A program made the position numbers and the translations under genes. Of a DNA stretch of 64,000 nucleotides, positions 38,423-64,000 are shown one piece after another. This stretch comes from Phyllobacterium endophyticum (GTDB lineage: Bacteria; Pseudomonadota; Alphaproteobacteria; Rhizobiales; Rhizobiaceae): NCBI RefSeq assembly GCF_003010935.1, contig NZ_PGGN01000004.1, forward strand, positions 310,001-374,000, given 5' to 3'. Position 1 is the stretch's first letter. The number at the start of each line of letters is the position of its first letter. The notes under the pieces were generated by a model. It had not been told where the DNA came from, did not search any database, and was given only the letters and a program-made list of their open reading frames with translations.

Positions 38423-38428
38423 AGCTTG

Positions 38429-38457
38429 AGAATCGCATTTCCGAGAATCACTGTCAA
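38429..38457 (-). promoter_or_regulatory. ctRNA promoter
   Basis: Consensus -35 TTGACA (38457-38452), 17-base spacer, -10 GATTCT (38434-38429) on the minus strand, in the repB-repC gap. Confidence 0.65.
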
Positions 38458-38513
38458 GCATTAAGCGTCGTTTCGGCGAGCAGATTTCTTTTGCCTGATT
38501 GAGGGTAAAAGCT

Positions 38514-41318: not shown

Positions 41319-43043
41319 TCAGGCAAACCTCCCGGTGAGTTCCTCGTGAATTATGTAAACACGCAGCGGCTCGGCTCGGCCGCGGATGGTGATCTCTTGA
41401 CTTTGCAGTTCAGAAACATCGGAGCCGGCAAGGAGAATAGTCGGTTCTGAGACGACAAGCGTCGAATCAAGCTCCTTGGCCACGGTTTCTAGTCGGCTGG
41501 CAACATTGACGGTGTCACCAATGGCAGTGAGATTTTTCACGTTTCCATAACCCATTGCGCCGACTATGGCGGGTCCGCTATGGACCCCAATGGCAACACG
41601 GAGCGGCATGGAAAGCTCGGTAGACAGTTCGTCGTTTAGCCGGTCTATTTCGCTGGCGATCCTCGCGGCCGCTTTCAGAGCATTGCGGCAGGCTTCCTCG
41701 GGAGAGCCCCTTAGCCCGAAAAGCGCCATGGCACCATCGCCTATGAACTTGTCCAGGCGGCCTCCCGAGCCTTCTACGGCCTGTCCCACGATGGCGAAAT
41801 AACGGTTGAGCAGGAAAACGATGTCATAGGGGAGCTGTGACTGGGTAAGCATGGTAAAGTTGCGGATGTCGCAAAAGAGAATGACGATCTCCTGCTCGCG
41901 TCCCGGATTGGTTTGCTGGCTGCCGATCGGGAGGGCGGCCTCAAGGGTTGGTACAAGCATCGGCACCACGCTGATATCGTTGGTCGGGCGCAATTGACAG
42001 GCGAGACGCACGCCGGGATCTGCATTGATGCGGTCGAGCGTTGCCAGTTCTGTTGTTTCAGCTGGAGGAAGAGACGCCGCGCCTTGCAAAACCTGGACCC
42101 GGCAAGTCGAGCAGCGGCCCTTGCCGCCGCAGACCGCATAATGCGGGATTCCGCCCAGCCGGCTCGCTTCAAGCACACTGAAGCCCCGCGGAACGTTGAC
42201 GACCTGCCCTTCCGGATAACGGATTGCGATCTGATCGGACCGCTCGCGCCAATTGCGGCGCGTACGCATGGCAAAGACCGTCAGCAGACCGCCGGCAAAA
42301 CCGCCATAGAGGGTGAACTTGGCCAATCGAACCCGTTCCTTGCCGACCACGGTGGCTGACGAATAGGCGGCGTTATCGCTTTTAAGAGCGCTACCTGAAG
42401 CGGGGTATCCGCTTCCAAGGCTGGACTGCAGCGGCTCGCTGGCGAGTATCCGCCCCGTGCTAGCAAACCCGAGCAAAGCGAGTACGGGTAGGAGAATTGC
42501 GAAGGTAAGAAGAAGTGGTGCCGCCCTGTGATACCAAGGGCGGTAGCGCAGCCAGAAATGAACCCCGATACAGCCGTGCATCCAAACCACGACGAGTGCG
42601 ATCGATTGGCGCAGGCCGCTCATTGGCGAGTTGATCCATAGCGAGCGGATCACCGACGCGTAGACGTCAGGCGTGCCCAACAGCTCGGAGCTGATGCGTG
42701 TTGCGATGACATGTTCAATGATCAAAAGGGGGATGAGGAGGCCCAAAATGATCTGCATGGCCTCTCGAAGCGGCATGACGAGAGTTCTGCGTTTATAGAG
42801 CGAGCGCATGACGAGCAGGATGTGAACGAGAACTGAACCATAAAGCAGAGCGCTGCCAAGCGGATTGCGCCATGTGGCGGTAAACCACAGTCTGCCCTTT
42901 TCCGCGGCATCGAGAGAGATCAGGTTCAGCGCATGATTTGCAAGATGAAGGGTCACGAAGACAAGCATGACCAACCCCGAAACCAATCGCGCCCTTCGCA
43001 GGGATCGCTCGGACAAGAGGGGAAATGTGTCGACTACTGTCAT
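41319..43043 (-). CDS. cyaC: Membrane adenylate cyclase with haem-b-type anchor and [2Fe-2S] domain (CyaC-like)
   Basis: A 574-residue protein. Residues about 20-235 form six helices like the succinate dehydrogenase membrane anchor, with His in TLHLANHALNL, SVLVHILLVM, IIEHVIATRI and WMHGCIGVHFWLR placed to bind haem. Residues about 280-375 are a plant-type ferredoxin domain with CGGKGRCSTC and a later Cys (RLACQLRP). The C terminus (about 385-560) is a class III cyclase: VILFCDIRNFTML and FIGDGAMALFG give the metal Asp pair. This matches S. meliloti CyaC, a quinone/redox-responsive cyclase with a dihaem anchor. The ATG at 43043 is chosen; the frame extends to 43196. Confidence 0.85.
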   Translation of the reverse strand: MTVVDTFPLLSERSLRRARLVSGLVMLVFVTLHLANHALNLISLDAAEKGRLWFTATWRNPLGSALLYGSVLVHILLVMRSLYKRRTLVMPLREAMQIILGLLIPLLIIEHVIATRISSELLGTPDVYASVIRSLWINSPMSGLRQSIALVVVWMHGCIGVHFWLRYRPWYHRAAPLLLTFAILLPVLALLGFASTGRILASEPLQSSLGSGYPASGSALKSDNAAYSSATVVGKERVRLAKFTLYGGFAGGLLTVFAMRTRRNWRERSDQIAIRYPEGQVVNVPRGFSVLEASRLGGIPHYAVCGGKGRCSTCRVQVLQGAASLPPAETTELATLDRINADPGVRLACQLRPTNDISVVPMLVPTLEAALPIGSQQTNPGREQEIVILFCDIRNFTMLTQSQLPYDIVFLLNRYFAIVGQAVEGSGGRLDKFIGDGAMALFGLRGSPEEACRNALKAAARIASEIDRLNDELSTELSMPLRVAIGVHSGPAIVGAMGYGNVKNLTAIGDTVNVASRLETVAKELDSTLVVSEPTILLAGSDVSELQSQEITIRGRAEPLRVYIIHEELTGRFA

Positions 43044-43123
43044 GAATACCGTGGATTTCTCTCGAATCAATCTATGCGACGAATGCTGATTTGGCGAGAC
43101 GATGAAGCTACCCCGAATCGTTC

Positions 43124-43129
43124 TATAAT
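43124..43129 (+). promoter_or_regulatory. Possible -10 element before the glycosyltransferase gene
   Basis: A perfect TATAAT in the divergent gap between the cyclase and the glycosyltransferase. The -35 is poor. If used, transcription would begin near 43137, excluding the GTG at 43135 as the start of the downstream gene. Confidence 0.3.
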
Positions 43130-43209
43130 GTGATGTGACACCGCTCTTGCAATTGCAGCCGGAACGTTCGAAAGCTAGCCGAGATGCAATGCTCAAAGCA
43201 CGAAGACAA

Positions 43210-44301
43210 ATGCATATCGCGTTCTATGCTCCGCTGAAATCGCCCAATCATCCGGTTCCTTCGGGCGATCGTCAGATGGCGAAGCTGCTTGTCGCTGCGC
43301 TTCGCCTGGCTGGACATGAGGTTGACGTGGTGTCGGAGTTGCGTAGTTTTACGCCGACGCCTGATGCTGCCGAACGTGGGAAAATTGTGGCGTTGGCCAA
43401 ACGTGAAGTGGAGCGGCTTTTGCGGCAATGGCAGCATGGCGCCAAGCCCGATTTGTGGTTCTGTTATCATCCCTACTACAAAGCACCTGATTTGATCGGT
43501 ACACCGATCACCACTGCTCTTCGTCTACCATCTGTAACGGCGGAAGCTTCCTATTCAAAGCGAAGGGACGACAGTGGCTGGGCCGAGATGCAATCGCTGG
43601 TGGTGGATGCAATTCAGCAAGCCTCGGTTAACATCTGTTTTACCAAGAGGGACGAGATAGGACTGGCCAGTCAAGTCGCGACGGCCAGGCTGGCGCGCAT
43701 GCAGCCATTCATAGACGCTTCCGCTTTTCTGAAGGAACCGGCTGCAAATGACCGGAACCGGTTGATAACCGTCGCGATGATGCGGCATGGCGACAAGCTC
43801 ATGAGCTATCGGATGCTGGCAGAGGCGCTGACCCTGCTGGGCGACAGACCCTTCAAGTTAAGCATTATTGGCGATGGTCCAGCTCGCGAGGCTGTACAAT
43901 CGATGTTCGCGCATTTCGGCGAACAGGTAGAGTGGCTCGGGCAGAAGCGGGCAGGGGAGGTCGTAGATATCCTTTACCGTGGCGGAACTTATATCTGGCC
44001 AGGTACCGGTGAAGCCTACGGCCTCGCCTATCTGGAGGCGCAAGCGGCCGGTTTGCCGGTAGTGGCGCAGAATACGGCCGGCGTTCCCGAAGTCGTAAGC
44101 GACGGCGTGACAGGAACGCTGACCGAGGCTGGCGATACGCAAGCGTTTGCCGACGCCATAGCAACGATGATGGATTTCGACGAGCAACGTAGTGCAATGG
44201 GCCGCGCGGCGCGACGTTTCGTGGTGGAGGAGCGATCACTGGAAATTGCGGCGAGGCGGCTGGATACGATATTGAGGGAGTACGTGGCCGATGGAGGCTG
44301 A
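43210..44301 (+). CDS. Glycosyltransferase family 4 protein
   Basis: A 363-residue GT-B glycosyltransferase starting MHIAFYAPLKSPNHPVPSGDRQMAKLL, typical of the N-terminal domain with its glycine-rich acceptor loop. The C-terminal donor domain has LSIIGDGPAREAVQ, VEWLGQK and GEAYGLAYLEAQAAGLPVVAQN with the EX7E pair, then TAGVPEVV. ATGs at 43189 and a GTG at 43135 are possible earlier starts. It is retaining and probably uses a nucleotide sugar. The end overlaps the deacetylase-like gene by 11 bases, so the two work together. Confidence 0.85.
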   Translation: MHIAFYAPLKSPNHPVPSGDRQMAKLLVAALRLAGHEVDVVSELRSFTPTPDAAERGKIVALAKREVERLLRQWQHGAKPDLWFCYHPYYKAPDLIGTPITTALRLPSVTAEASYSKRRDDSGWAEMQSLVVDAIQQASVNICFTKRDEIGLASQVATARLARMQPFIDASAFLKEPAANDRNRLITVAMMRHGDKLMSYRMLAEALTLLGDRPFKLSIIGDGPAREAVQSMFAHFGEQVEWLGQKRAGEVVDILYRGGTYIWPGTGEAYGLAYLEAQAAGLPVVAQNTAGVPEVVSDGVTGTLTEAGDTQAFADAIATMMDFDEQRSAMGRAARRFVVEERSLEIAARRLDTILREYVADGG

Positions 44302-45043
44302 TGCGGTGTGGCGGCCCTTGCAGGAAGAACTTGCACGCTGGAGTGATGCCAATCGATGCGCCCGTTTTTGGCTGCGTGACGATGACGCGGTCGAGCCAAC
44401 TGATGCGCTGGAGCGGCTACTCAGTTTGAGCGACGGATACGGCATACCCCTGACGCTCGCAGTGATACCGTTGCGAGCGGATGCACGGCTGGCGAGGCGA
44501 TTGGCACAGCAGCAGAACGTCACTGTCGCCGTGCATGGATGGTCGCACCGTAATTACGCGCCGCCGGATGAGAAAAAGCAGGAGTTGGGGCCTCACCGGG
44601 CGCAGGAGGTAGTATCTGATGAGCTACGTGGCGGGCACAGGCGCCTGAACGAGCTATTTCCCGCAAGTTTTGTACCTGTGCTGGTACCGCCCTGGAACCG
44701 TATCGATCCGCTGCTCGTATCCGTGTTGCAGGGCATCGGGTTCAAAGCCCTGTCAGTTTTCGGTCCCACCAGGATGAATCATGCTGCATACCTGCCTGTG
44801 GTCAATACGCACATTGACCTGATGGATTGGCACGGGACGCGCGGTTGCCGGGATCATGGACAATTGGTCGAAGCGCTCGTCAACGAACTACGGCTTCGCT
44901 TCGGGGGCGACGAGGAGCCCATCGGTATTCTCACGCATCATCTTGTGCATGATGAATCCGCTTGGTCTTTCTTGCAAAAGCTTTTCGCCATTATGGCCGC
45001 GGGTTCAGGAGCTCGTTGGGTTTCACTGCGAGAGCTGATCTAG
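44291..45043 (+). CDS. Polysaccharide-deacetylase-like protein
   Basis: A 250-residue cytosolic protein resembling the NodB/CE4 barrel group: FWLRDDDAVEPT (the Asp-Asp at the first metal motif), TLAVIP, VAVHGWSHRNYAPP (second motif HxxSHRN), PPWNRIDP and ILTHHLVHDESAW near the end. No signal peptide. It probably removes N- or O-acetyl groups from a lipid-linked or soluble sugar made by the coupled glycosyltransferase. The stop overlaps the MBL gene on the other strand by 4 bases. Confidence 0.75.
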   Translation: MEADAVWRPLQEELARWSDANRCARFWLRDDDAVEPTDALERLLSLSDGYGIPLTLAVIPLRADARLARRLAQQQNVTVAVHGWSHRNYAPPDEKKQELGPHRAQEVVSDELRGGHRRLNELFPASFVPVLVPPWNRIDPLLVSVLQGIGFKALSVFGPTRMNHAAYLPVVNTHIDLMDWHGTRGCRDHGQLVEALVNELRLRFGGDEEPIGILTHHLVHDESAWSFLQKLFAIMAAGSGARWVSLRELI

Positions 45044-45870
45044 AGCTCGATCACCTGAAAATCACGCGCCGCAAATGCGCCAGCGAACCGCTCTCTGGAA
45101 AGGCGCTCGAATGCGTCGAGTTCGTCATCCGTCCTGTCTGGTGCATGATGGAATAAGGCGAGTCTGCCGATTTTCGCCGCCTTCGCCAACAGGACTCCAT
45201 GTTGCCATGTTGAGTGGCCGTAGCCGAACCGCCTTGGCATTTCGTCTTCGGTATAGGTGCAGTCGTATACGACAAGATCGGCGTTCTGAATCAACTCGAG
45301 CACGATGGGGTCAAGCTTACCGGCTTCATGCTCCGTGTCGTAGATTAGTGCGAGTACGCGGCCGGCAAATTCGATTCGATAGCCGATACAGCCGCCGGGA
45401 TGATTAAGGCTGCGGGTATGGATCGCGACCGCGGGGAACGGTTCCAATGTGTCGCCGGAGCGGAAGTCGCGAAAGCCGAGACTCGCCTTGCAGATGTCCG
45501 GCTCCACCGGAAACCAGGGCGGACGCATGAATTGTTTGACCATTTCCCGCGTCGTCATGATCCCGGCCAGGTGCCCGGACCAGAGACGGACATTCATCAT
45601 CGGATTGTAAAGTGGCATGAAATAAGGAAGACCAATAATGTGGTCGTAGTGGCAATGCGTGTAGAAGATATCGAGATTATCGACGCCTTCCAGTGTCAGG
45701 GCGTCACCGGCCTGTCGTATGCCGGTACCAGAATCGAAGATCAAACGACGCTTGCCGCACTGGACTTCGATACATGCGGTATTACCACCATACCGCCTGA
45801 AGTCGGGACCCGATACGGAAACGCTCCCCCGCGTTCCCCAGAATTTCACCCGAAACACTTCGTCGTTCAT
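45040..45870 (-). CDS. MBL-fold metallohydrolase
   Basis: A 276-residue metallo-beta-lactamase-fold protein. The metal motif is THCHYDHIIGLPYF (HxHxDH), with the second His in SLNHPGGCIGYRIE, Asp in LALIYDTEH and a final His in LFHHAPDRTDDEL. The VKFWGTRGSVSVSGPDFRRYGGNTACIEV opening (quoted in part: GTRGSVSVSG) is shared with RNase Z-like and cyclic-nucleotide phosphodiesterase-type members. The ATG at 45870 is chosen; the frame reaches 45921. Its position near two cyclases and a cNMP-binding protein makes a phosphodiesterase role possible, but this is inference. Confidence 0.8.
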   Translation of the reverse strand: MNDEVFRVKFWGTRGSVSVSGPDFRRYGGNTACIEVQCGKRRLIFDSGTGIRQAGDALTLEGVDNLDIFYTHCHYDHIIGLPYFMPLYNPMMNVRLWSGHLAGIMTTREMVKQFMRPPWFPVEPDICKASLGFRDFRSGDTLEPFPAVAIHTRSLNHPGGCIGYRIEFAGRVLALIYDTEHEAGKLDPIVLELIQNADLVVYDCTYTEDEMPRRFGYGHSTWQHGVLLAKAAKIGRLALFHHAPDRTDDELDAFERLSRERFAGAFAARDFQVIEL

Positions 45871-46082
45871 TATGCTTTTTTCACCCAATCCCCTTTTCGC
45901 GGCATCGTAACCAAACTCCAATCGTTAGGCGAGGCTTCGCTTTCGATTTATTTGGCTCCACGCAATAAAAAGCTGCGATAAATGACATATAAGCGATAGC
46001 AGTCTGGATTTTAAGCTTTACTACAATCATTGATAGCAACGTATACGCAAGGCAGTTTTCATCAATTCAGAACCTGGATTTC

Positions 46083-47834
46083 ATGTCTTCTTCGAAGTTC
46101 CCACAAATTGCTGTCATAGCTGATGCCCATTTCCACGATCTTTACGGCGATTATGATTTCGACGGCATCGACGTAAGCGGTCGCAGGATGACAGCACGCC
46201 GTCTTACCGATACAATGCGTTCTACTCGCGTGTTCAACGAAAGCTATCAGGCCTTGCGGGCCGCTCTCGACGACGCGGTAACGCGTGGCATAAAGCACAT
46301 CGTACTCCTTGGTGACTATTCCGACGACGGGCAAAACGCAACTCTTGCTGCGCTGCGGCGATTGCTCGACACTTATGTTCGCGAACACGGATTGATCTTT
46401 GCGGCAACGCCGGGAAATCACGATATTTTCGGACTGAACGGCAGGCACCATGCCAAACGTCTGCTCAACTCCGATGGATCTTACACTATCGTGGCGAGCG
46501 ATAGTGAGTTCGTTGATGACGACGCGGCCGGTATGGTTGTCACCGAAAAGATGTATTGCCCCGGGTACCCGGGCGGCCTCCAGGCATTGGCGAGTACCGG
46601 CTTTTTCCGGCGCCAGGCGGACTTGCATTGGGAGACACCTTTCGGAACTGACGATGACCCGGCGGCACGATCATACTCGGTCTTTTCGGAAGACGGACAG
46701 AACCACTACCGCCTGATGGATGGCTCCTACCTGGTCGAGCCTGTTCCAGATCTTTGGCTGATGATGATTGACGCGAATGTTTTTGAGCCGCGCAATGGAG
46801 CTTATCTTGCTGGTGACGCCGGAGCATTCATAGACAGCACCAACGCTGGATGGAATGCTGTTTTGAGACACAAGCGCTTTATCCTCGACTGGATCAAAGA
46901 TGTAACGGCAAGAGCCACGCGTTCTGGCAAGCAACTGCTGACATTCTCGCACTATCCGATGCTGGACATGCTTAACGCAACGGAGAAGGACGAACGAGCG
47001 CTGATGGGTGAAACTAGTTCCGTAAGGAGAACCCCCAGCCAAGATGTGGCCGATGCAGCGCTGGACGCCGGCCTGCACCTTCATTTCAGCGGACATCTCC
47101 ATATCAACGATACCGCACTCCTCAAGCGAGGAACCGAGTACCTCGTCAATATTGGCGTGCCGTCCCTCGTTGCATTTCCGGCGGCTTTCAAGGTGATCAC
47201 ACTCGACGATACAAGTCTGAACGTCGAAACCGTGAGCCTTGATCACCTGCCGATTGATCCTTCTATCAGTCGGCAGTACCGTATCGAGATTGAACTCACC
47301 GGAAAAAGCGCCGGCCGCATGCTCCAGGCAACGAACTATGGAGAGTTCATTTCTGAACACGTTCAGCAACTCGTCGTGTATCGCTATTTACGCCGCGAGT
47401 GGCCACTAGACATGGCACGAATAATTCCGCTGCTCAGTTTGGCCGATTTGTATGTCCTCGGCCGTTGCCAGCAATCGGTTGCTGCCGATGATGTCCTTGC
47501 GCTTGTCCGTTCGGAGCGTTCCCGCAAGGGATTCGAAGGTGATGACGCCTTGCTGGAAAGGCTCGATGCGTTATCCGTGGTTGAACTTCTTGGCGACTGG
47601 TACAGGCTGCGCACAGCCCGCGAAATGGCATTGGAATACATCCGTTCAGAACGACTTGCCATATACCGTTTGCTGATTACGACTTACGCAGATAGTTCGG
47701 CAATAGAGTTAGGAAGCGTCAGGGAGAAATTTGCTCGAATGCTGCGGATGATGGGCCAATACATGACGGGCGTGCCGTCGCGTGACTTTTGCGTCGACCT
47801 GACGACGGGAGCAATCACTAGAGAAAAGCAGTAG
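46083..47834 (+). CDS. Metallophosphoesterase (calcineurin-like)
   Basis: A 583-residue protein. The N-terminal 390 residues carry the calcineurin-type motifs: IADAHFHD (DxH), VLLGDYSDDGQN (GD), PGNHDIF (GNHD), TFSHYPM and FSGHLHIN (GHxH). The C-terminal 190 residues are helical and unique. Family members cleave phosphomono- or diesters, including cAMP and lipid-linked diphosphates. It lies alone on the plus strand in a gap of AT-rich sequence (45922-46082). A nucleotide or glycolipid substrate would fit the neighbourhood, but is not shown. Confidence 0.8.
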   Translation: MSSSKFPQIAVIADAHFHDLYGDYDFDGIDVSGRRMTARRLTDTMRSTRVFNESYQALRAALDDAVTRGIKHIVLLGDYSDDGQNATLAALRRLLDTYVREHGLIFAATPGNHDIFGLNGRHHAKRLLNSDGSYTIVASDSEFVDDDAAGMVVTEKMYCPGYPGGLQALASTGFFRRQADLHWETPFGTDDDPAARSYSVFSEDGQNHYRLMDGSYLVEPVPDLWLMMIDANVFEPRNGAYLAGDAGAFIDSTNAGWNAVLRHKRFILDWIKDVTARATRSGKQLLTFSHYPMLDMLNATEKDERALMGETSSVRRTPSQDVADAALDAGLHLHFSGHLHINDTALLKRGTEYLVNIGVPSLVAFPAAFKVITLDDTSLNVETVSLDHLPIDPSISRQYRIEIELTGKSAGRMLQATNYGEFISEHVQQLVVYRYLRREWPLDMARIIPLLSLADLYVLGRCQQSVAADDVLALVRSERSRKGFEGDDALLERLDALSVVELLGDWYRLRTAREMALEYIRSERLAIYRLLITTYADSSAIELGSVREKFARMLRMMGQYMTGVPSRDFCVDLTTGAITREKQ

Positions 47835-47892: not shown

Positions 47893-48357
47893 CTATTTCG
47901 CCGCCTGCCTTTGCTTGCTGCGGGCTTCGCTGAGTTCCGTAGTGGTGTGGCTTAGACGGTCTGCGAGGACACGCATGATCTCAATGGTCATTTCCGGGTA
48001 GTCGCTCAAGAGCTTGAGAAAGTGGTCCTTGCTGATCCGCAGGGCCTCGAGAGCCGAGTTTGCCCGGACAGTCGCCGTGCGGGAAACGTCGCAGAGAATT
48101 GCGATTTCGCCAACGATCGAATCGTGTTCGATCTCTGCAACCTTGATCTCGCCGCTAGGGGTGTCAGAAAGAATATCGGCACCACCCGACAGGATGACGT
48201 AAGCCGCGTCGGCCGGGTCACCTTGGCGAAAAAGTGTCTGGCCCGATTTGTAACTCACGCGCTCCGATGTGAACGCCAGAAGCTTGAGCTTTGCCGGCGC
48301 AACTCCCGAAAACAGCGGTATTCGCCGCAACATTTCAACTTCATCTTTCAGCAGCAT
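47893..48357 (-). CDS. Cyclic-nucleotide-binding domain protein without DNA-binding domain
   Basis: A 154-residue protein consisting of one cNMP-binding domain: LFSGVAPAKLKLLAF, GQTLFRQGDPADAAYVILSGG, the phosphate-binding cassette VGEIAILCDVSRTATVRA and ALRISKDHFLKLLSDYPEM. It ends in a helix and lacks the CRP/FNR helix-turn-helix. It sits 74 bases after the large ABC-like gene on the same strand. It probably senses cAMP or cGMP and acts on a partner protein; the window encodes two class III cyclases that could supply the ligand. Confidence 0.8.
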   Translation of the reverse strand: MLLKDEVEMLRRIPLFSGVAPAKLKLLAFTSERVSYKSGQTLFRQGDPADAAYVILSGGADILSDTPSGEIKVAEIEHDSIVGEIAILCDVSRTATVRANSALEALRISKDHFLKLLSDYPEMTIEIMRVLADRLSHTTTELSEARSKQRQAAK

Positions 48358-48431: not shown

Positions 48432-51146
48432 TTACGATACCAGCTCTCTGAATATACCGTCTTTCTCCAAAAGAGTCGCGTGAGTTCCATCTTCGACCAG
48501 TGTTCCCTTGTCGAATACAATCACGCGGTCGAACAGGTTTGCAAGCGCAGTATTGGATAGGACCCAGATGATCGCCGGCGCGTGACCCTCCTCATGCAGG
48601 TCCTTCATTATGTTGCGGGTGATTTGGTCCTGAACACGTTGGTCGAGGGCAGGAAGCGGGCGATTCAGGATGACGTAATCGGCCCGTTTGAGCAGGGCTC
48701 TGGCAACATTGAGCTTTTGCCTCTGTACATTTGTCAGTCGCTTGCCCCCAGAACCTACATCGAAATCCATGCCTATCGAAAGCACGCTTTCGAATAGCCC
48801 AAGCCGATCAAACAGATCGCGCAGAATGGTGCGAATACGGTCCGAGCCGTCGGCTTGGGTGAAGCCGATGCGGCCAAACAGTACATTGTCCAACAGGGTT
48901 GCCGAAGCTGCAAACCGCTCGGGGTCGTAACGCTCGATCACCGCTTTGAGATCGTCGGGCATGTTCTGATGGAATCGGGCACGGGCATCGACAATCTTGG
49001 CCATGAGTTGAGCGTTCAAGAGGCCGAAGCGATGCCTGGGTTCGATATAGGAGAAGCTGAGGCGGATGATACTTGTCCGCTCGTCCGCCGATGCAGCTTC
49101 AATGCCGCGACCTTGCAGTTTCTGCAGGAGAGCCTGATAGGTTGGTATATCATCGGCGGTCATGAACGTAAGTTGCTGGAAGAAGGGATGATCTGGAGGC
49201 AGATCCTGGAATAATTCGACGGCATTGGCGGCGATCTCGAGCCCCATTGTATAGAGATCGATATAAAGGTCGTTCTCGCGCAGGATCGACCGGAAATATG
49301 GATGCGCCGCCAGTTTCCTGTTGGTCATCATCGGACGCTTCATGCTACCGAACAGAAGGTTTTCGCCTATGGTCGCCTGCGGATTATATTCGTCCAGCCT
49401 GAACGGCACGACGAGATCGTCGAGTTGTTCTTTTTTCAGGCGTTTTCGCAGTGCCTGGCGCAACTCTACGATGCGGTCGGTAAGATCGGTATGCGTAGCC
49501 GTATTTACCAAGGAGCGCAGAGCCATATCCAGAATATCCTGGGAGATCAGCACTGCATCAAGCACCGGGCGCACCACCTTGAACAAGTCCTCCGGGCCCG
49601 TCACACCCGCAGAGGCATAGTCGACCCAATCGCTATTGAGGTCGAGTTCGGGATTGCCGGCGCGGCGCGCTTCGTTGATTTCCCATCTATACCTCGTGGC
49701 GCTCTTACCTTCATACTCGACCTTTGTAAGCGGGGCGTGCTTGAGGCCGTAGAGCAAATTGTCTCTCAGTGTTCCGTGGAAGAAATAGGTATCCGATGCA
49801 GCGTAGGCTATGCGGCGGCCTGTAACGGATTCCGGCAGCTCCAGGATGTCGGTTCCATCGATGGTTATGCGTCCCTGTTCGGGCCAGACGAGCCGCGCGA
49901 AAGCTTCGGCAAGGGCCTCTGCACCGCTACCGCTATTTCCCACGATCGCGACGGTTTCACCCGGCTTGATCTCGAGAGTGACATGCCTGAGTAGTGGTGC
50001 GCCACTGTCATCGGAGACCGTCAGGTTTACCGCATTCAGTGAATGTTCGAGACGGTTTACCGGCTGGGGTACCAGAGCCTGAATCTTGGGGTCGACGAGC
50101 CTGTCGACATTAAACTGTTCCACCACCTGATTGTATTTGACCTGAACGTCCTGACGAGCCTGATCCCAGTCGATCAGCTCCTTCAACGGTCCAGGAAGGT
50201 CCTTATATGCATTGATGACAGCGACAAGTTGGCCGATATCGAGTCGTCCCTGCAGGGCGAGAAACCCGCCGATCGAATAGAACAGGAAGGGAGTAACCTG
50301 CGCCAGAAAATTATTGATGAACTTGACCAGAAATTTCCACTGATAGAGATCATAGCGAATCGAAAAGATGAGACCGAGGCGCGCTGCGATATCGGCCCGT
50401 TCGAAGTTCGACGTGTCGTTGCCGTGGATGGTGCCGATGCCCTCGACGATTTCGCCGACGCGACCCGAAAGTTCGCGCGCCGTCAATTGACGCTGGCGTC
50501 CGAGTTCAAGCAGCCGCTTGCGCATGCGCGGAATGACGACGCCCTGGATCGCGACGATACCGGCTGCGATCATGCCGAGCCAGAAATTCTGCATGATGAT
50601 GAATACAAGGGCGGTAATCGCCTGTCCACCCAAGAGAGCGGGCTGGACGAAAGCGTCCCCGGTGAAGCCGCCCATAGGCTCCACTTCGTCCTTGATCATG
50701 GTTGCTATTTCGGCTGATTTAATGCGTTTGAATTGCGCAGGCGGAAAGCGCAACACACGATCGATCAATTCGAAGCGTATGCGTCGCAACATACGCTCAC
50801 CGAGGCGGCCCTTGTAGGTATTGATGTAGAGCTTGAATAGGCCGTTGATGATGACCAGCAACAAGAAAACGAGACTGAGTGCCATCAACGTCTGGAAGCG
50901 CGTGAGCTCGAGCCCTTGAAACAACTCTATCTTGCCCAGAAGCGGGACATCGTATTCCAGATGCATGAACGTGCGGGTGGCGCCCGGCGTCTCAAAGCCG
51001 TTCCCTTGTATCGGCCCATTGACGATCTGCTTCGGCAGATCGAATGACATGAAATAGGGAATCATGGAGACTGCCACGACAAACAGAATCCATATCTGCT
51101 GTAGCCGTGTGTTCGACCAGATGTAACGTGTTAGACTTGTTTCCAT
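48432..51146 (-). CDS. ABC-exporter-like protein with degenerate nucleotide-binding domain
   Basis: A 904-residue protein. Residues about 15-310 are an ABC exporter membrane domain (six helices; GRLGERMLRRIRFELIDRVL). Residues about 365-460 start a nucleotide-binding domain, but Walker A reads GNSGSGAE (Lys to Ala409), the Q-loop region AYAASDTYFF has no Gln, the signature is LTNVQRQKL instead of LSGGQ, Walker B reads YVILNRPLPALD (no DE) and the switch His is missing (VLSNTALA). A 290-residue helical insert lies between residues 470 and 760. NLLYG (463-467), NLLFG (596-600) and NVLFG (754-758) occur three times. It cannot hydrolyse ATP in the usual way; export or regulation is unknown. Confidence 0.8.
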   Translation of the reverse strand: METSLTRYIWSNTRLQQIWILFVVAVSMIPYFMSFDLPKQIVNGPIQGNGFETPGATRTFMHLEYDVPLLGKIELFQGLELTRFQTLMALSLVFLLLVIINGLFKLYINTYKGRLGERMLRRIRFELIDRVLRFPPAQFKRIKSAEIATMIKDEVEPMGGFTGDAFVQPALLGGQAITALVFIIMQNFWLGMIAAGIVAIQGVVIPRMRKRLLELGRQRQLTARELSGRVGEIVEGIGTIHGNDTSNFERADIAARLGLIFSIRYDLYQWKFLVKFINNFLAQVTPFLFYSIGGFLALQGRLDIGQLVAVINAYKDLPGPLKELIDWDQARQDVQVKYNQVVEQFNVDRLVDPKIQALVPQPVNRLEHSLNAVNLTVSDDSGAPLLRHVTLEIKPGETVAIVGNSGSGAEALAEAFARLVWPEQGRITIDGTDILELPESVTGRRIAYAASDTYFFHGTLRDNLLYGLKHAPLTKVEYEGKSATRYRWEINEARRAGNPELDLNSDWVDYASAGVTGPEDLFKVVRPVLDAVLISQDILDMALRSLVNTATHTDLTDRIVELRQALRKRLKKEQLDDLVVPFRLDEYNPQATIGENLLFGSMKRPMMTNRKLAAHPYFRSILRENDLYIDLYTMGLEIAANAVELFQDLPPDHPFFQQLTFMTADDIPTYQALLQKLQGRGIEAASADERTSIIRLSFSYIEPRHRFGLLNAQLMAKIVDARARFHQNMPDDLKAVIERYDPERFAASATLLDNVLFGRIGFTQADGSDRIRTILRDLFDRLGLFESVLSIGMDFDVGSGGKRLTNVQRQKLNVARALLKRADYVILNRPLPALDQRVQDQITRNIMKDLHEEGHAPAIIWVLSNTALANLFDRVIVFDKGTLVEDGTHATLLEKDGIFRELVS

Positions 51147-51314: not shown

Positions 51315-52451
51315 TTAGCGTTCCAACAAGTTCCGCAGGATCTCCGCCGTACGCTCGGCGCCGTCCAGATTGAGCCTATGTGATGGCGGTTTCGGCTGTT
51401 CCATAGCTGCCGTGATCGCTTCGGAGAGAATATCGCCATTCAAACCATTCTCGGGCAGTGCGATTGCAAGCCCGAGCGCTTCCAGCCGGGTTGCCCGGAC
51501 ACTCTGCTCCGTCTCACCGCCTGCGGTAAAGGGAACCAGTATCGAGCGACATTGCGCCCGGAGAATGTCGCAGACCGTGTTATATCCCGCTTGAGATATC
51601 GAAAGCTCGGCTCCTTTGAGCAATGAGGGAAAGTCCCGTCGGAAACGAAAAAGACTGACATTGTCAGGCGCTTCAGCTGCCAGAGCGGCGAAATCAGTTT
51701 TTGGCATGTTGGGGCCGGCGATCAGGCACCATGCTCCACCAAAGTTCGAATTTCTTGCGGCATAGAGGGCCGAACGAATGAGTTCAGTTCCCACTGCCCC
51801 ACCTCCAGCCGACACAACTATGTCGAAAACATCGGACGGGTTGTCCGGAGAAGGTCCTGCTACGAGCCCGGTATAGATGATCTTCTTCGAGATTTCCCCT
51901 GAAAGTGGAAACGTATCCTGCAGGGCCACAAACGAAGGATCGCCATGTACGAGCACATGGCCGAAATGCTTGTTGATGAGGCTGACGGTCTCCTGATCCC
52001 GTCCGGGCTTCATCCGCTCCTGCAGAATATCCCGGACTGAGGTCAACAGAAGCGGGCGTGGCCTGGATCGTTCGATCGCCTCAAGCAATGGCATCAGTTC
52101 GAAGCGCATTTGCCTGCGGCCGAAGGGAAAGGCCTCAATGATTACGACGTCAGCTTGTGTCGTGCTGAACGCTTCAAGCAGGAGATCACGACGTCGGGCG
52201 AGATAGCCGTCATCTGCGGAATCGCCGTGATGATCGACCAAGCCGGAAAATCCGGCGCTGTCGGCAAACAGAGGTGGTAGTGCAAGTGACTTGACGTCGG
52301 GTCCGGGAAAGCCGGGAACACTGGAACCGCCGGTCACCACAGTGACATCAAAACGATTTGCCGCTAGAGCAGAGGCGATGCGGCTGGCGCGAGCCAGGTG
52401 GCCGATACCGAGGAGGTGCTGGACATAAAAGAAGACACGCGGCTCACTCAT
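51315..52451 (-). CDS. Glycosyltransferase (GT28/MurG-like)
   Basis: A 378-residue GT-B protein. It opens VFFYVQHLLGIGHLARASRIA, the GxGHxxR nucleotide-sugar loop pattern of the MurG-like group. The C-terminal part has VVSAGGGAVGTELI, SISQAGYNTVCDIL and LVPFTAGGETEQSVRA, typical of the donor site. The ATG at 52451 overlaps the stop of the GT4 gene (52448) by 4 bases. It is related in layout to the glycosyltransferase at 53703-54914; the two flank a GT4. Confidence 0.82.
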   Translation of the reverse strand: MSEPRVFFYVQHLLGIGHLARASRIASALAANRFDVTVVTGGSSVPGFPGPDVKSLALPPLFADSAGFSGLVDHHGDSADDGYLARRRDLLLEAFSTTQADVVIIEAFPFGRRQMRFELMPLLEAIERSRPRPLLLTSVRDILQERMKPGRDQETVSLINKHFGHVLVHGDPSFVALQDTFPLSGEISKKIIYTGLVAGPSPDNPSDVFDIVVSAGGGAVGTELIRSALYAARNSNFGGAWCLIAGPNMPKTDFAALAAEAPDNVSLFRFRRDFPSLLKGAELSISQAGYNTVCDILRAQCRSILVPFTAGGETEQSVRATRLEALGLAIALPENGLNGDILSEAITAAMEQPKPPSHRLNLDGAERTAEILRNLLER

Positions 52452-53692
52452 ATTTTTGCCCACTCTGTTTCAAACAGCCCGGTCAACTGGCGAATGCTGG
52501 AATCGTGGTCAAAGTGTTCGAGCACCCTTTTCTCCGCAGCTTTGCCCAAGCGGTACCTTAGATCAGGCTCACGAATGGCGCGTTCGAGGGCGATAGCGAA
52601 CAACCGGGGGTCTTCTGGCGGCACGACAAAGCCGTTTTCTCCGCCAGTAAGAAGTTCCGGGACACCGGAAATGGCGGTCGAAATGCAAACAAGGTTCTGG
52701 CTACAAGCCTCAACGAGGACATTTGGAAGACCGTCTCGATCTCCATCCTGCGCTATCCTGCAGGCAAGCGCAAAAATGTCAGCGCGACGGTAGTGGGCGA
52801 GTACCTCTTCCTGCGCAAGTGCCCCTTTCCAGACGATGCGATTTTCAATGCCAAGCCTTTTTGCCAGCGATCTCAGTCGCGGGAGTTCGTCACCGCCGCC
52901 AATATGAACAAAGCGCCATTGAAGGCGCGCCGGGAGCATCGCCAAGGCATTCAGCAGAATGTCATATCCCTTCTTGGGAACAGCACGTCCAACGCTCAAG
53001 ATCTCGACCGGTTGGGCTCGATCCGACCCATCCCGGCCAGGCCGAACCGCGGTAAAGCGCCCGAAGCGACCAAGATCAAGACCATGATAACTCAGATGCA
53101 CCTGCTCCTTTCGGGGTGTCAGCGCGCGCATATGTTCAAATCCGGAGCGCGTGCAAGTAACGCTCCAGCGTGCCTCGGCGAGCTTCTCGGTCAGCTCCCA
53201 GTCAGGAGATGTCCAAATGTCCTTGGCATGCGCGGAGCAGCTCCAGGGGATACCGGTCAAAATGCTCGTATATCGCGCAACAGAAGCCGGGGTATGTATG
53301 AAATGGGCGTGCAACCATCTGCCTGCATCGGGCCATTCATGGGCAAGGACCAGCGCCTGACCGAGACGCCGCACACGATTGCGAGAGATATCCCGTTTCA
53401 GATCGTCCCAAAAACGTCGCAGCAGGGGCTTGAAGTTCGGTTTCCTCCAGGTCGCAGCCAAGGCTCGGAACACTCTAAATGGCTCTTCATGGAGATACTC
53501 GGGCAAGTAAACCACACGAGCTTTAATCTCGTCATGGATCGGATGGCGTTTCTTGTCCGTTGGCCGGCGCATGGAAATGAGAGTCAGGTCGAACCCGGCT
53601 CGTTCGAGTCCTAGCAGTTCCTGTGCAATAAAGGTTTCCGACAGCCGCGGATAACCCTTCAGAAGCACCAAAGTTTTGAGGCGATGAGGCAA
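52448..53692 (-). CDS. Glycosyltransferase family 4 protein
   Basis: A 414-residue GT-B enzyme: KGYPRLSETFIAQELLGLERAGFDL at the N terminus (quoted in part: YPRLSETFIAQE), HLHAHFIH-type pocket, GIPWSCSAHAKDIW, SVGRAVPKKGYDILLNAL (donor domain), and DGDRDGLPNVLVEACSQNLV with the EX7E-like pair. The sequence KGYPRLSETFI is common in colanic-acid-type and exopolysaccharide glycosyltransferases. It overlaps the downstream GT by 4 bases and lies 10 bases after the GT upstream, so three transferases are co-transcribed. Confidence 0.85.
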   Translation of the reverse strand: MPHRLKTLVLLKGYPRLSETFIAQELLGLERAGFDLTLISMRRPTDKKRHPIHDEIKARVVYLPEYLHEEPFRVFRALAATWRKPNFKPLLRRFWDDLKRDISRNRVRRLGQALVLAHEWPDAGRWLHAHFIHTPASVARYTSILTGIPWSCSAHAKDIWTSPDWELTEKLAEARWSVTCTRSGFEHMRALTPRKEQVHLSYHGLDLGRFGRFTAVRPGRDGSDRAQPVEILSVGRAVPKKGYDILLNALAMLPARLQWRFVHIGGGDELPRLRSLAKRLGIENRIVWKGALAQEEVLAHYRRADIFALACRIAQDGDRDGLPNVLVEACSQNLVCISTAISGVPELLTGGENGFVVPPEDPRLFAIALERAIREPDLRYRLGKAAEKRVLEHFDHDSSIRQLTGLFETEWAKI

Positions 53693-53702: not shown

Positions 53703-54914
53703 TTATTCCGCTACAGCTGGCAGGGGCCGTTCGCGTTCGTCCAGCCAGTCGCCGACGATTTCGGAGATATGCACGAGACCTTCCAGGCGCATACCATCGC
53801 CCTTGCCCGTTTGAGAAGGCGGTGCCCGGTCGGGCAGGCGCTTAAGCACCTGCGCAAATCGCAAGGGATCTTCGGCTTCCTCGGGTCGCAGCATTTCAAT
53901 GAGACCGAGTTCGGTAGCGCGTGTGGCCCGGATCAACTGTTCCTCGCGCGGCAGCACGCGCGGTACGATCAGCGCCGGCTTATCGAAAGAGAGTATCTCG
54001 CAATAGGTATTGTAGCCGCCCATGGCAACCACGGCCTTGGCGCCAGCGATGAGCTCCTCCATCCGATTGTCGAACTCGATAACCTGGATATAGGGAATCT
54101 TGCCGCCCTTCTTGACAAGCTTCGCTCGCTGCTTGGCCGGCATGTAAGGCCCCAGAACGATGAATGCCTTGTGCTGGAGAGTGGGATCCTGCTGATAAGC
54201 ATGGATGACATTATGGACGAGATCGGCGCCGTCGCCGCCACCGCCGGTGGTGACGAGAATATAATCGCCCTCGGGAACATGGGTGGGCGCGTTATCATTC
54301 GACAGACTGCGCTGCAGAAAACCCACGAATTTCATCTTGTCACGGAGCGTGGCGGGCACATCCAGATCCACCAGGGGGTCGTAGAAATCAGGCGGACCAT
54401 AGACCCAGACAGTATCGTAAAACTGGTCTATCTTACGCATCACGTTGTTGTTCTTCCACTCGGCTTCGAGCAGATGCGGTGCATCCATGACCTCACGCAG
54501 CCCAAGGACGAGTGTGGTGCCTCGCGATTTCAGATAGGCGAGGGTTTCCTCGATCTCACCCTTGAGTCCCATTGGCTCCTTGTCGACGATGAAAATATCC
54601 GGCTGAAACGTCTCCGCGGTGTGACGGATAATCGACTGGCGCATCTTCAGCGTTTCATGCAGATCGATATGCCTGGCGAGTGACGTGTACTCGCCATTGC
54701 GCAGCTTGATGACGCTCGGCACTTTCACGAAATCCACCCGCGCCCGATAGTCGAAGGCGCCTGCAATCGTCGCGCCTGAAATGATCAGTATGTTGAGACC
54801 ACGAAAATCCTCGACGAGCGAATGGGCGATTGTCCTGCACCGCCGCAAATGACCAAGGCCGAAGGTGTCGTGGCTGTACATCAAGATCCGGGCATCTTCG
54901 AAACGCCGCATCAT
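53703..54914 (-). CDS. Glycosyltransferase (predicted, MurG-like)
   Basis: A 403-residue GT-B protein beginning RILMYSHDTFGLGHLRRCRTIAHSL (quoted in part: DTFGLGHLRRC), the GLGHLRR loop of a predicted glycosyltransferase group related to MurG. Later come VTTGGGGDGADLVHN, FIVLGPYMPAKQR and AVVAMGGYNTYCEILSFDKPALIVPR. The ATG at 54914 has AGAGGG upstream. It is first of three glycosyltransferase genes in a row and 85 bases after the ABC permease gene. The product is likely cytoplasmic, building an extracellular glycan. Confidence 0.82.
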   Translation of the reverse strand: MMRRFEDARILMYSHDTFGLGHLRRCRTIAHSLVEDFRGLNILIISGATIAGAFDYRARVDFVKVPSVIKLRNGEYTSLARHIDLHETLKMRQSIIRHTAETFQPDIFIVDKEPMGLKGEIEETLAYLKSRGTTLVLGLREVMDAPHLLEAEWKNNNVMRKIDQFYDTVWVYGPPDFYDPLVDLDVPATLRDKMKFVGFLQRSLSNDNAPTHVPEGDYILVTTGGGGDGADLVHNVIHAYQQDPTLQHKAFIVLGPYMPAKQRAKLVKKGGKIPYIQVIEFDNRMEELIAGAKAVVAMGGYNTYCEILSFDKPALIVPRVLPREEQLIRATRATELGLIEMLRPEEAEDPLRFAQVLKRLPDRAPPSQTGKGDGMRLEGLVHISEIVGDWLDERERPLPAVAE

Positions 54915-54999
54915 GGTCAAAACCCTCTATTACGCGGGTTGACCCGCCCAGTGCATTCGAAAGCTAAGTGAGAACGCGAACTCATGGCCTCAACCTCCA

Positions 55000-56175
55000 C
55001 TATCTGTAGGGATCGGCGGCGTCGCGCAACCCATCTCCAAGGAAATTGAACGCCAGGATAACAAGAATGACAGGAATCATTGGAAAAAGCAGCCAGGGAT
55101 AAAATGCAATAACGCTCACACTGCGCGCCTCGGTCAACAGAATACCCCAGCTCGTGATCGGCGGCCTTAGGCCAAGACCGAGGAAGCTCAGCGCTGTCTC
55201 GCCCAGAATCATTCCGGGAATCGAGATGGTGGCCGTCGCGATCAGGTGCGACATGAAACCTGGAACAAGATGGCGCCCGATGATACGCGGACTTTTGGCA
55301 CCCATCAGCTGCGCTGCCAATACGTAATCTTCCTCACGAAGCGCCAGGAGCTTGGAACGAACCGAGCGGGCGAGACCAGTCCAGTCCAGCATTCCGAGAA
55401 TGATGGTGATGCCAAAATAGATCAGGATTGGGCTCCATGTCACAGGCATAATCGCCGCAAGCGCCATCCAGAGCGGTAAACTAGGCAATGATTGCAACAC
55501 CTCGATGACACGTTGGACCAGCAAATCAAACACTCCGCCGTGGTAACCGGCAAGACCGCCGATTACAATTCCCAGAACGAAACTGATGGTGATTCCAATC
55601 AAACCGATGGTCAGCGATATTCGAGCGCCATAAATGATGCGCGACAGGACATCACGACCAAGCCGATCAGTCCCCAGCAGGAACATCTGCCCGTCCTTGG
55701 CCGGGCAGACAAGATGGATATTACTGTCGATCAAACCCCAGAATCGGTAACTGTCACCGCGACAAAAGAAGCGAAGCGGTTCGACGTCAGCGCCATTGTT
55801 CGTGTAGACACGTTTCAGCGATTCCATGTCGAGCTTCATTTCCCGGCCGTACACGAATGGCCCGACAAAATTCCCGTCATGGAAGAAATGCACACGCTGT
55901 GGCGGCGAATGGATGAAATCGACATTCCGGGTGTGCAAATTATAGGGCGCAAGGAATTCGGCAATGACGATCATGCCGTAGAGTAGAAGAAGGAAAATCC
56001 CGGACACGAGTGCAAGCTTGTGACGTTTGAATTTCCACCACATCAGCCGCGTCTGCGATGCGAGATGGATCCTGGCCTGTTCGTCGGTCATTACCTCCAC
56101 TGACATAGGATCAAAAGGAGCAGTGGAAACGTAGTGCTGGAGGGGCGCGCCGGGCGAGGGAAGCGGTGCTGTCAC
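55000..56175 (-). CDS. ABC transporter permease (OppC/DppC type)
   Basis: A 391-residue inner-membrane permease. The GTG at 56175 overlaps the upstream permease stop (GTGA), so the longer open frame to 56622 is not the start. The N-terminal TM helix (LVSGIFLLLLYGMIVIAEFL) is followed by an unusually long periplasmic stretch (residues about 70-145, with a Cys pair FFCRG and LVCPAK). Then comes the permease core: GTDRLGRDVLSRIIYGARISL, the EAA-type loop REEDYVLAAQLMGAKSPRII and a final GDGLRDAADPYR. It imports peptides or oligosaccharides with the neighbouring subunits. Confidence 0.88.
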   Translation of the reverse strand: MTAPLPSPGAPLQHYVSTAPFDPMSVEVMTDEQARIHLASQTRLMWWKFKRHKLALVSGIFLLLLYGMIVIAEFLAPYNLHTRNVDFIHSPPQRVHFFHDGNFVGPFVYGREMKLDMESLKRVYTNNGADVEPLRFFCRGDSYRFWGLIDSNIHLVCPAKDGQMFLLGTDRLGRDVLSRIIYGARISLTIGLIGITISFVLGIVIGGLAGYHGGVFDLLVQRVIEVLQSLPSLPLWMALAAIMPVTWSPILIYFGITIILGMLDWTGLARSVRSKLLALREEDYVLAAQLMGAKSPRIIGRHLVPGFMSHLIATATISIPGMILGETALSFLGLGLRPPITSWGILLTEARSVSVIAFYPWLLFPMIPVILVILAFNFLGDGLRDAADPYR

Positions 56176-57170
56176 TTGGTGCTCCTGCCTTGCAGACGAA
56201 TGCGCGGATCGAGAAAAGCAAGGGCAATATCGGAAATGAGCACGCCGATTACGGTGAGGAATGCCAAAAACATCAGGAAAGACCCTGCAAGATACATATC
56301 CTGGCTTTGCAGCGCTTTGATGAGCATTGGCCCCGTCGTCTCCAAGGAGAGTACAATGGCGGTGATTTCGGCCCCGGATATGATGGAAGGCAAGATCGAG
56401 CCGATATCGGAGACGAAGAAATTGAGCGCCATGCGCAGCGGATACTTGACGAGCGTGCGGAACGGGTGAAGTCCCTTGGCGCGAGCCGTCATGACATATT
56501 GCTTCTGCAACTCGTCCAGGAGATTGGCGCGCAAGCGCCGGATCATGCCCGCCGTACCGGCTGTACCAACGATGATCACCGGAATCCACAAATGGGAAAG
56601 GATCGATCTTGCCTTCTCCCAACTCATCGGTTCGTTGAGATACTGCTGATCCATCAAATGGCCGATCGACGTGCCGAACCAGATATTGGCAAAGTACATC
56701 AGGATCAACGCCAACATGAAGTTCGGGATAGCGATGCCGATCAAGCCAAGGAACGTGAGGCCGTAATCGCTCCAGCTATACTGGTGGGTCGCGGAGTACA
56801 TGCCGATTGGAAAAGCGATCAACCAAGTGAAGAGGATTGTGACAAAGGAGACGAGGATCGTCAGCCACAGGCGGTCACCGACCACCTCGCTTACCGGTAG
56901 CTGGTATTCGAAGGAATAGCCGAAATCACCCTGCAACATGCCGCCGAGCCAATGAAAATATCGCAACACCGGAGGCCGGTCGAAACCGTACTGATGGCGC
57001 AATTCTTCGATTTCCTGCAGATTGACCGTTTCACCTTGGGCTCGCAGCTCGGCGATCTGACTTTCAAAGAAATTGCCGGGCGGCAGTTCTATTATGGTAA
57101 AGACCAGGGCTGAAATAACCAGCAGGGTGGGGATCATCGCGGCAATACGCCAAAGTATGTAACGCAGCAT
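56172..57170 (-). CDS. ABC transporter permease (OppB/DppB type)
   Basis: A 332-residue permease with six helices. The start LRYILWRIAAMIPTLLVISALVFTI is typical of OppB. Residues about 35-75 are a periplasmic loop (LRAQGETVNLQEIEELRHQYG). The EAA loop is ALVKYPLRMALN-like (ARAKGLHPFRTLVKYPLRMAL). It is 3 bases after the binding-protein gene and overlaps the OppC-type gene, so the importer is one operon. Confidence 0.9.
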   Translation of the reverse strand: MLRYILWRIAAMIPTLLVISALVFTIIELPPGNFFESQIAELRAQGETVNLQEIEELRHQYGFDRPPVLRYFHWLGGMLQGDFGYSFEYQLPVSEVVGDRLWLTILVSFVTILFTWLIAFPIGMYSATHQYSWSDYGLTFLGLIGIAIPNFMLALILMYFANIWFGTSIGHLMDQQYLNEPMSWEKARSILSHLWIPVIIVGTAGTAGMIRRLRANLLDELQKQYVMTARAKGLHPFRTLVKYPLRMALNFFVSDIGSILPSIISGAEITAIVLSLETTGPMLIKALQSQDMYLAGSFLMFLAFLTVIGVLISDIALAFLDPRIRLQGRSTK

Positions 57171-57173
57171 TCG

Positions 57174-63598: not shown

Positions 63599-64000
63599 CC
63601 GTCGTCCTTGCAAATGCGAGCCACGTCCACTTTGCACGCACGGTCTTTCTCCTGACAAGAGTGCTAAGAATCGCACACAATTGGCAGAAAACAGGGAAAA
63701 GATGAGCGAATCGGGCAATTGTGTCAACGCTGGCAGCAAATGCGCCAGTAGTCATGCTCTTACCGGTCCGAGTTGCTCAGGCGGGCAGTTGGTGGGCGGT
63801 CCTCTAGCGGTCACTGTTGAAATTTTCAAATGGGCATTTCACCGATCAGAAACAATAGGCGATTGTCACTGATTGCGAGCACAGCACGACAGAACCCACC
63901 GTCGTACTCGCTTGACACCCAACTTCAGAGCGGTCATCTAAACGCCAACCCGCAACGGTGTTTGACTTGAAGAGAATGTCTTGGCCACTTCTGCTTTTCT
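63599..64000. other. No convincing gene at the right end
   Basis: The last 400 bases carry only shadow frames. A TTGACA at 63912-63917 has a poor -10 partner (CATCTA), so I do not call a promoter. The 5' end of the cyclase gene faces this gap and its promoter must lie here, unlocated. Confidence 0.5.

Follow-up and report, generated by a model that had tools for sequence, protein, structure and literature searches.

What is left for an ATP-binding cassette (ABC) exporter to do once the residues with which it would handle ATP have gone? The question is raised by a gene at 48432..51146, on the minus strand of a 64,000-nucleotide stretch of Phyllobacterium endophyticum DNA (positions 310,001 to 374,000 of contig NZ_PGGN01000004.1, assembly GCF_003010935.1; called the window below), whose 904 codons encode an exporter-like protein of 904 aa. 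A first reading made from the DNA letters and their translations (the sequence-only reading) had noticed an uninterrupted frame in which the ATPase motifs are lost, and the frame proved intact, on the minus strand. Comparison with its relatives indicates that this protein, designated here pseudo-ABC, is almost certainly a pseudo-ATPase with an ABC-exporter fold; that a stand-alone cyclic-nucleotide-binding (CNB) protein encoded beside it is very probably its partner; and that pseudo-ABC probably belongs to a surface-polysaccharide pathway of the type called PPP in Sinorhizobium meliloti. The partnership and the match to the PPP locus, like the homology of the repeats described below, were beyond the reach of the sequence-only reading.

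In Pfam the protein matches ABC_membrane (PF00664, residues 85-311, E 5.3e-17) and ABC_tran (residues 386-481, E 2.7e-14), with no third domain at E<=0.01. The transmembrane domain, delimited by the ABC_membrane match and by conservation across 96 sequences, extends over residues 85-345 (50112..50894, on the minus strand like all features of this gene), and exporters also head the fold comparison, the model of the membrane part being of low confidence. The nucleotide-binding domain (NBD) is split into an N-terminal half (NBD-N, residues 369-467, 49746..50042), delimited by Pfam, alignment and model, and a C-terminal half (NBD-C, residues 751-904, 48435..48896). Motif residues were placed by alignment to solved exporters and within the family, and each loss claimed by the sequence-only reading was confirmed in this way. 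In NBD-N the Walker A consensus GxxGxGK[ST] has become GNSGSGAE (49917-49940), with Ala409 and Glu410 in place of the Lys and the Ser/Thr, and the Q-loop Gln position is occupied by Ser451; in NBD-C the signature LSGGQ is replaced by LTNVQ (residues 804-808, 48723-48737), the Walker B remnant YVILNR (48660-48677) has Asn828-Arg829 at the Asp/Glu positions, and Ser864 stands at the switch His position. The D-loop-like A833-L834-D835, listed as kept by the same reading, is indeed preserved, and its Asp is retained in 163/178 family sequences. Position 379, on which the sequence-only reading is silent, an Asp in this protein and Asp or Glu in 178/185 family members, is by our reading the place of the A-loop, so that the A-loop aromatic residue would be replaced as well. 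The P. endophyticum genome holds a single copy of pseudo-ABC, the next seven matches being partial, with 22-31% identity.

The family alignment comprised 178 distinct sequences (one split gene entered as an 806-residue frame) and later 185, seven having been added, and six catalytic residues were scored in it (Lys409, Ser/Thr410, Gln451, Asp828, Glu829 and His864), gaps of shortened rows counting as not kept. All six occur together in 0/185 sequences, and the exact LSGGQ is likewise absent from all 185, among them a split gene that lacks the signature region; none of the six is kept in 114 sequences, one in 22, two in 22, three in 18, four in eight and five in one. In a tree of the membrane domain alone, built on 96 rows picked from the 185 at <75% identity, the window protein falls in an 18-row set (SH-aLRT 97), referred to as the window clade, in which 18/18 rows retain none of the six; there the Walker A Lys position holds Ala, Gly, Ser, Thr or Val, and the Walker B Asp has become Asn in all 18 rows. 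Outside this clade 11 of the 78 tree rows retain none, which gives 29/96 overall. Homologues with intact Walker motifs, which the sequence-only reading had named as evidence against itself, were found in part: some distant members do keep catalytic residues, but none is complete, the most canonical (locus L184, 37% identity) keeping five of the six, with a GKT Walker A (Lys409, Thr410), Asp828, Glu829 and His864, a Q-loop Ser instead of Gln, and the signature LSGAQ, not exact LSGGQ. The tree requires a minimum of 17 changes at Lys409, 18 at Glu829 and 15 at His864. Since distant members keep some catalytic residues, the family descends from an ATPase whose catalysis was lost stepwise; judging by the alignment, the loss is gradual across the family and complete in the window clade.

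The partial motifs of distant members could also mean that ATP or another nucleotide is still bound, without hydrolysis, through non-canonical residues. Such binding is compatible with the presence, among the 178 sequences, of the Walker A Lys in 43, the Walker B Glu in 37 and the switch His in 22, and with the acidic residue that mostly follows position Lys409; however, the window clade has lost the Walker A Lys and exchanged the Walker B Asp for Asn throughout, and nearly the whole family carries Asp or Glu at the presumed A-loop place, which makes retained nucleotide binding improbable.

Split frames, which occur in P. brassicacearum STM 196 (L018/L087), Phyllobacterium sp. 628 (L021/L124) and the record of S. 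meliloti 1021, suggest that the gene might be decaying. Nevertheless, 195/199 loci with a match have a single unsplit frame, the four split ones being two strains each counted twice, and the family is conserved class-wide: matches at E<=1e-60 occur in 129/385 genomes of the class (86/277 genera), those at E<=1e-45 in 30/398 genomes of the phylum, all 30 from the same class (Alphaproteobacteria), and among near relatives 34/59 genomes, the own genome counted in, matched at E<=2.7e-128. Substitution rates, computed with an NG86-type script for the window gene against five Phyllobacterium loci and for four Rhizobium pairs, point the same way. The ratio of nonsynonymous to synonymous substitutions (dN/dS) for the whole gene is 0.026-0.108 in the eight computable pairs of the nine: 0.026, 0.040, 0.049 and 0.042 against Phyllobacterium, the fifth locus not being computable with dS near saturation, and 0.019/0.313, 0.009/0.150, 0.088/0.813 and 0.025/0.743 for the Rhizobium pairs (ratio 0.03-0.11). 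Single domains reach up to ~0.19 (NBD-N, one pair), and the membrane domain has the lowest dN in 8/9 pairs, the order of domains by dN/dS being inconsistent. Mean information over 96 sequences is 2.91 bits in the membrane domain (85-345), 2.24 in NBD-N, 2.17 in the insert that separates the NBD halves and 2.21 in NBD-C. These rates show that the protein evolves under purifying selection, and decay can be dismissed with near certainty despite the split frames in three lineages. The view that this is an evolved pseudo-ATPase, not a decaying gene, was thereby upheld by the spread of the family, the low dN/dS and the absence of catalytic residues from all rows of the window clade.

What persists beside the degenerate ATP site is a second potential ligand site. 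The CNB gene (47893..48357, minus strand, 154 aa) follows pseudo-ABC on the same strand, as had been noticed at the outset, at a distance of 74 bp downstream, and its product matches cNMP_binding (PF00027, E 4e-21) with the phosphate-binding cassette GEIAILCDVSRTA. Its Pfam profile at E<=0.01 consists of cNMP_binding at residues 34-119 alone, without the C-terminal helix-turn-helix of Crp/Fnr regulators. Of 89 loci examined, L122 was excluded for want of a strong match; in the remaining 88, a separate CNB frame is present in 71, of which 68 have it directly downstream and on the same strand and three (L143, L200, L205) within long overlapping frames of that strand, and in a further 13 the CNB is fused as a C-terminal domain to the ABC protein, which Pfam confirms in 8/8 of those scanned, so that 84/88 loci have a CNB, separate or fused. 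In a set of 193 CNB sequences that includes many close relatives, the cassette retains Gly83 in 193, Glu84 in 187, Arg93 in 193, the Thr/Ser in 187 and the Ala in 187; this GE...RTA pattern holds the Glu and Arg that mark a phosphate-binding cassette. The motif losses in the ABC protein, taken with the conserved CNB cassette, mean that the ATP site degenerates while a probable cyclic-nucleotide site persists. Against the NCBIfam family TIGR03896, whose name ties CNB proteins to bacteriocin-type exporters and thus offers a parallel for a CNB linked to export, the CNB protein scores weakly (37.8 bits, cutoff 161.05).

The second departure from an ordinary exporter lies within the NBD. The sequence-only reading had placed a helical insert of 290 residues between its halves and had listed three copies of an N-L/V-L-F/Y-G element; the insert is real, and the elements stand where they had been listed. 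The elements are NLLYG at the end of NBD-N (463-467, 49746-49760), NLLFG within the insert (596-600, 49347..49361) and NVLFG (754-758, 48873..48887), of which Asn596, Asn754 and Gly758 are invariant (185/185). The insert (residues 468-750, ~283 aa, 48897..49745), delimited by profile comparison and models and bearing the repeated units, has a column-count length of 282 in 127/185 members, with a range of 255-354. The same genome encodes other exporter-like proteins; in the seven that were compared, a single N-x-x-[FY]-G stands shortly before the signature in four, and this pattern finds none in three. In hhalign, family columns 545-605 and 698-763 match with a probability of 99.3% (E 2.5e-20, 55 columns), and the region of the first element (425-470) matches the two later units with 89% and 94%; of 19 control comparisons against 545-605, the 12 overlapping no unit reached <=9.5% and the seven overlapping a unit 65-100%. 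By these profile comparisons the NLLFG units are homologous repeats and the triplication holds for a unit no longer than ~50 residues, the first copy aligning to the others solely around NLLYG. A second, weak similarity links 522-544 to 615-637 (probability 49%), and a possible third copy of that helix stretch, seen by eye alone, lies near 770-793. Duplication of a whole NBD as the source of the insert was considered and found unsupported, just the NLLFG unit (~50 residues) and one short helix stretch recurring.

An AlphaFold2 model built with 40 sequences (mean pLDDT 72.5) is of good confidence in the NBD and in the insert past residue 530 (mostly pLDDT 78-94). The modelled NBD halves align jointly to the NBD of ComA (Z 27.8, rmsd 2.2, 239 residues), and the insert is mostly helical in two models, that of the insert alone having a mean pLDDT of 74.1. 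A profile search of solved structures for a known domain in the insert gave chance-level matches only (best E 0.17), and Foldseek with the insert model returned no PDB match at E<=0.001, a result that does not demonstrate a new fold.

Compared with type IV ABC exporters (ABCB, MsbA, Sav1866, TmrAB, PCAT1, ComA), pseudo-ABC shares the ABC_membrane domain, the NBD fold and the NLLFG-like element, which several exporters have once, ahead of the signature; it differs in having lost all ATP motifs together with the A-loop, in the ~283-residue repeat insert and in its CNB partner. Loss of catalytic residues in one site is tolerated in TM287/288, TmrAB and TAP, where each chain of the heterodimer keeps part of one working composite site. 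Pseudo-ABC could likewise be the degenerate half of such an exporter, its catalytic half being encoded elsewhere, and degenerate-site heterodimeric exporters are indeed among its best fold matches, its D-loop-like Asp is widely retained and, in Rhizobium johnstonii, a region of 38 kb contains two further exporter frames at a distance of 12-16 kb. A neighbouring partner exporter was looked for: in 88/89 loci the fetched flanks, which cover linked genes only, hold no second full exporter frame with which a composite site could be formed. Moreover, a single chain here has lost Walker A, Walker B and the signature together, whereas the heterodimeric exporters keep a working site with their partner. 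A hidden heterodimer appears unlikely, and less likely than a homodimeric gate or a regulator without transport. SUR1 and SUR2 (ABCC8/9) offer another parallel, namely an exporter fold that serves regulation and not transport, and SUR2 structures appear among the listed structure matches; SURs, however, bind Mg-nucleotides, whereas at the pseudo-ABC locus the sensor would be the CNB protein, the ATP motifs being gone.

The genes around pseudo-ABC suggest a polysaccharide. Upstream of it in transcription are a GT28-like glycosyltransferase (GT28a, 51315..52463, minus strand, 48/88 loci), a group 1 glycosyltransferase (GT4b, 52448..53692, minus, 56/88) and a second GT28-like enzyme (GT28b, 53703..54920, minus, 54/88), the probable counterpart of smb21265 of S. 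meliloti, a tag assigned by counting; beyond these lie an oligopeptide-type ABC importer (OppC, OppB, substrate-binding protein and double ATPase, 55000..60982, minus), a polysaccharide lyase (PF14099, 61299..62258, minus) and an adenylate/guanylate cyclase domain protein (62255..63739, minus, E 1.6e-6). On the other side are a protein combining a 2Fe-2S ferredoxin domain with an adenylate/guanylate cyclase domain (41319..43196, minus), which may sense redox state and could be a source of the CNB ligand, a further group 1 glycosyltransferase (GT4a, 43135..44301, plus, 49/88), a polysaccharide-deacetylase-like protein (44291..45043, plus, 16/88), a metallo-beta-lactamase-fold (MBL) hydrolase (45040..45921, minus, 12/88) and a calcineurin-like metallophosphoesterase (46083..47834, plus, 2/88). 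The MBL hydrolase bears a weak likeness to RNase Z (75.6 bits) and a weaker one to a family of cyclic-nucleotide phosphodiesterases (39.6 bits, cutoff 400). At least one of the four glycosyltransferases occurs in 59/88 loci, all these glycosyltransferase counts being limited by flanks of ~5-6 kb and by contig ends. No Wzx, Wzy or other polysaccharide exporter was recognised among the 20 Pfam-scanned window proteins (36132-63739). Further along, repABC-type replication and partition genes are found at 36132-39794; given their nearness, the locus may be on a plasmid or chromid-like replicon.

In S. meliloti 1021 and R14 the same run is found, in the same cyclase-to-CNB order: cyclase, lyase, Opp genes, GT28b, GT4b, GT28a, pseudo-ABC and CNB. 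These strains differ in having the GT4a, deacetylase and MBL genes on the opposite side of the cyclase, and in R14 an extra methyltransferase gene precedes pseudo-ABC. This gene set agrees with that of the PPP locus, smb21252-smb21271; by counting from the published names, and not from tags read in the record, smb21252 would be GT4a and smb21265 GT28b, with pseudo-ABC and CNB just before smb21271. A degenerate DNA pattern search in the S. meliloti locus gave no match. PMC10128002 terms nine genes between smb21252 and smb21271 necessary for a surface polysaccharide that is still uncharacterised; it reports lower fitness under phazolicin for insertions in these genes and confirms the smb21252 and smb21265 mutants as phazolicin-sensitive. 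PMC10315480 reports seven of the nine PPP genes as up-regulated under predation. According to PMC5498481, the Clr-controlled polysaccharide genes sit in the neighbouring nodP2-smb21248 cluster, so that this work shows no cAMP control of the PPP locus. A term search in the main text of PMC7268258 gave no match. PMC11103875 reports that root colonisation requires pRL110056, a result left aside here since this old tag was not matched to any gene of the cluster. Membership of pseudo-ABC in a PPP-type pathway thus appears probable, an estimate that was lowered slightly because PPP is itself putative in PMC10128002.

How the protein would act there is what we infer beyond the CNB partnership and the PPP-type locus. 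The chances are about even that pseudo-ABC is a cyclic-nucleotide-controlled, ATP-independent ABC-fold membrane component of the PPP pathway that forms one unit with the CNB protein. That it is, within this role, a cyclic-nucleotide-controlled translocator or gate falls somewhat short of even. In the mechanism that we propose, cAMP or cGMP, perhaps from the cyclases of the cluster, would bind the CNB protein, which, attached either to the degenerate cassette or to the insert, would move the membrane domain in ATP's stead; the membrane domain would then gate, flip or help to assemble a lipid-linked intermediate that the adjacent glycosyltransferases produce, a task proposed because no Wzx, Wzy or polysaccharide exporter was recognised in the window. 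The exporter body would be a homodimer whose motion is set by the bound CNB protein and its ligand, serving as a gate, a flippase or an assembly platform for PPP. In its most specific form, an ATP-independent, cyclic-nucleotide-gated translocator (gate or scramblase) of a lipid-linked envelope polysaccharide, in which the CNB protein replaces ATP binding and the triplicated helical element replaces the catalytic interface, the proposal is tentative.

Only slightly less likely than this gate or flippase is a protein that regulates and transports nothing, though it too stays a tentative reading. The ABC body, as in the SUR of K-ATP channels, where it senses only, would be a receptor or scaffold that perceives the cyclic nucleotide through CNB and has the glycosyltransferases or the Opp importer under its control or in its assembly. 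The loss of the ATP motifs while a ligand sensor is kept would suit such a role, and many charged residues are among the most conserved, from helix 83-131 onward (E117, R121, R122, R124, E154). Two sets of more distant proteins bear on the choice. In a sister family (L212:3934-6522, L213:3539-6586 and L214:4798-7437; frames of 863-1016 aa), in which the ATPase motifs are also absent by eye, the counterpart of residues 541-842 is conserved at 36-38% identity while the membrane domain and the NBD core have diverged, and the insert may accordingly be a docking platform. Three paralogues of 404-425 aa (L215:5043-6317, minus strand; L216:5016-6227, plus; L217:4932-6197, plus) match the exporter membrane domain alone, with no NBD match in these frames; they suggest that the membrane domain acts itself, and in the main family that domain is the most conserved part, both of which count against a pure receptor. 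The L215 and L216 paralogues stand directly after genes for a multicopper oxidase and CopB (copper-resistance genes).

Several observations weigh against a cyclic-nucleotide-controlled component of the PPP pathway. Distant family members retain up to five of the six catalytic residues, and the two exporter frames of the R. johnstonii region leave room for a partner. The structural model is poor in 468-530 and in the membrane part (pLDDT block means 31-82), and whole-chain Foldseek superpositions are poor as well (TM 0.11-0.42). Four of the 88 loci have no CNB (L140, L144, L185, L187; L144 and L187 with <3 kb downstream), and in five of the fused members (L194-L198) the CNB cassette is weaker (R, next Q, P or A, next L); their Walker regions are poor too, and both ligand sites may be gone in them. 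In 12/13 fused loci the fetched flanks show no member of the glycosyltransferase quartet. In S. meliloti, polysaccharide-export genes of a neighbouring cluster are close by and could serve PPP, and in the 1021 record pseudo-ABC is split (pSymB 841723-844432) by a one-base difference in a single-base run; the phazolicin screen used this very strain. Other S. meliloti strains have intact copies, and since the 1021 and R14 records interrupt further genes of the cluster (the cyclase in 1021, GT28a and GT28b in R14), the 1021 split may possibly be a sequencing error. The authors of PMC10128002 call PPP putative and its barrier role speculation, cite the pSymB genome paper for the word necessary, and report the adenylate cyclase gene cyaA as depleted in the screen with the single mutant little changed; its accessible text does not say whether pseudo-ABC is among the nine PPP genes. 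Experimental work on this protein or an orthologue was not found in the literature.

Each on its own, degenerate NBDs, regulatory ABC proteins and exporters linked to a CNB are known already. What appears to be new is their combination here: complete motif loss, a repeated insert and a CNB partner. Searches of open-licence literature for the family, for ATP-dead ABC exporters, for its locus tags or for the PPP name found no paper on the protein, although most of those aimed at the family or at ATP-dead exporters were narrow multi-term queries and so weak evidence of absence, and the accessible text of PMC10128002 does not single out the ABC protein of the PPP cluster. The database label "ABC transporter ATP-binding protein" borne by many genes of the family is misleading. 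ABC exporters are the textbook case of ATP-driven transport, and here a widespread family under selection keeps the exporter body without the ATP chemistry and conserves a cyclic-nucleotide sensor, either as partner or as fused domain. For a putative polysaccharide reported to shield a rhizobium from an antimicrobial peptide, it supplies candidates for a membrane component and for a signal; if the proposed mechanism is true, the exporter cycle could be driven or gated by a ligand other than ATP.

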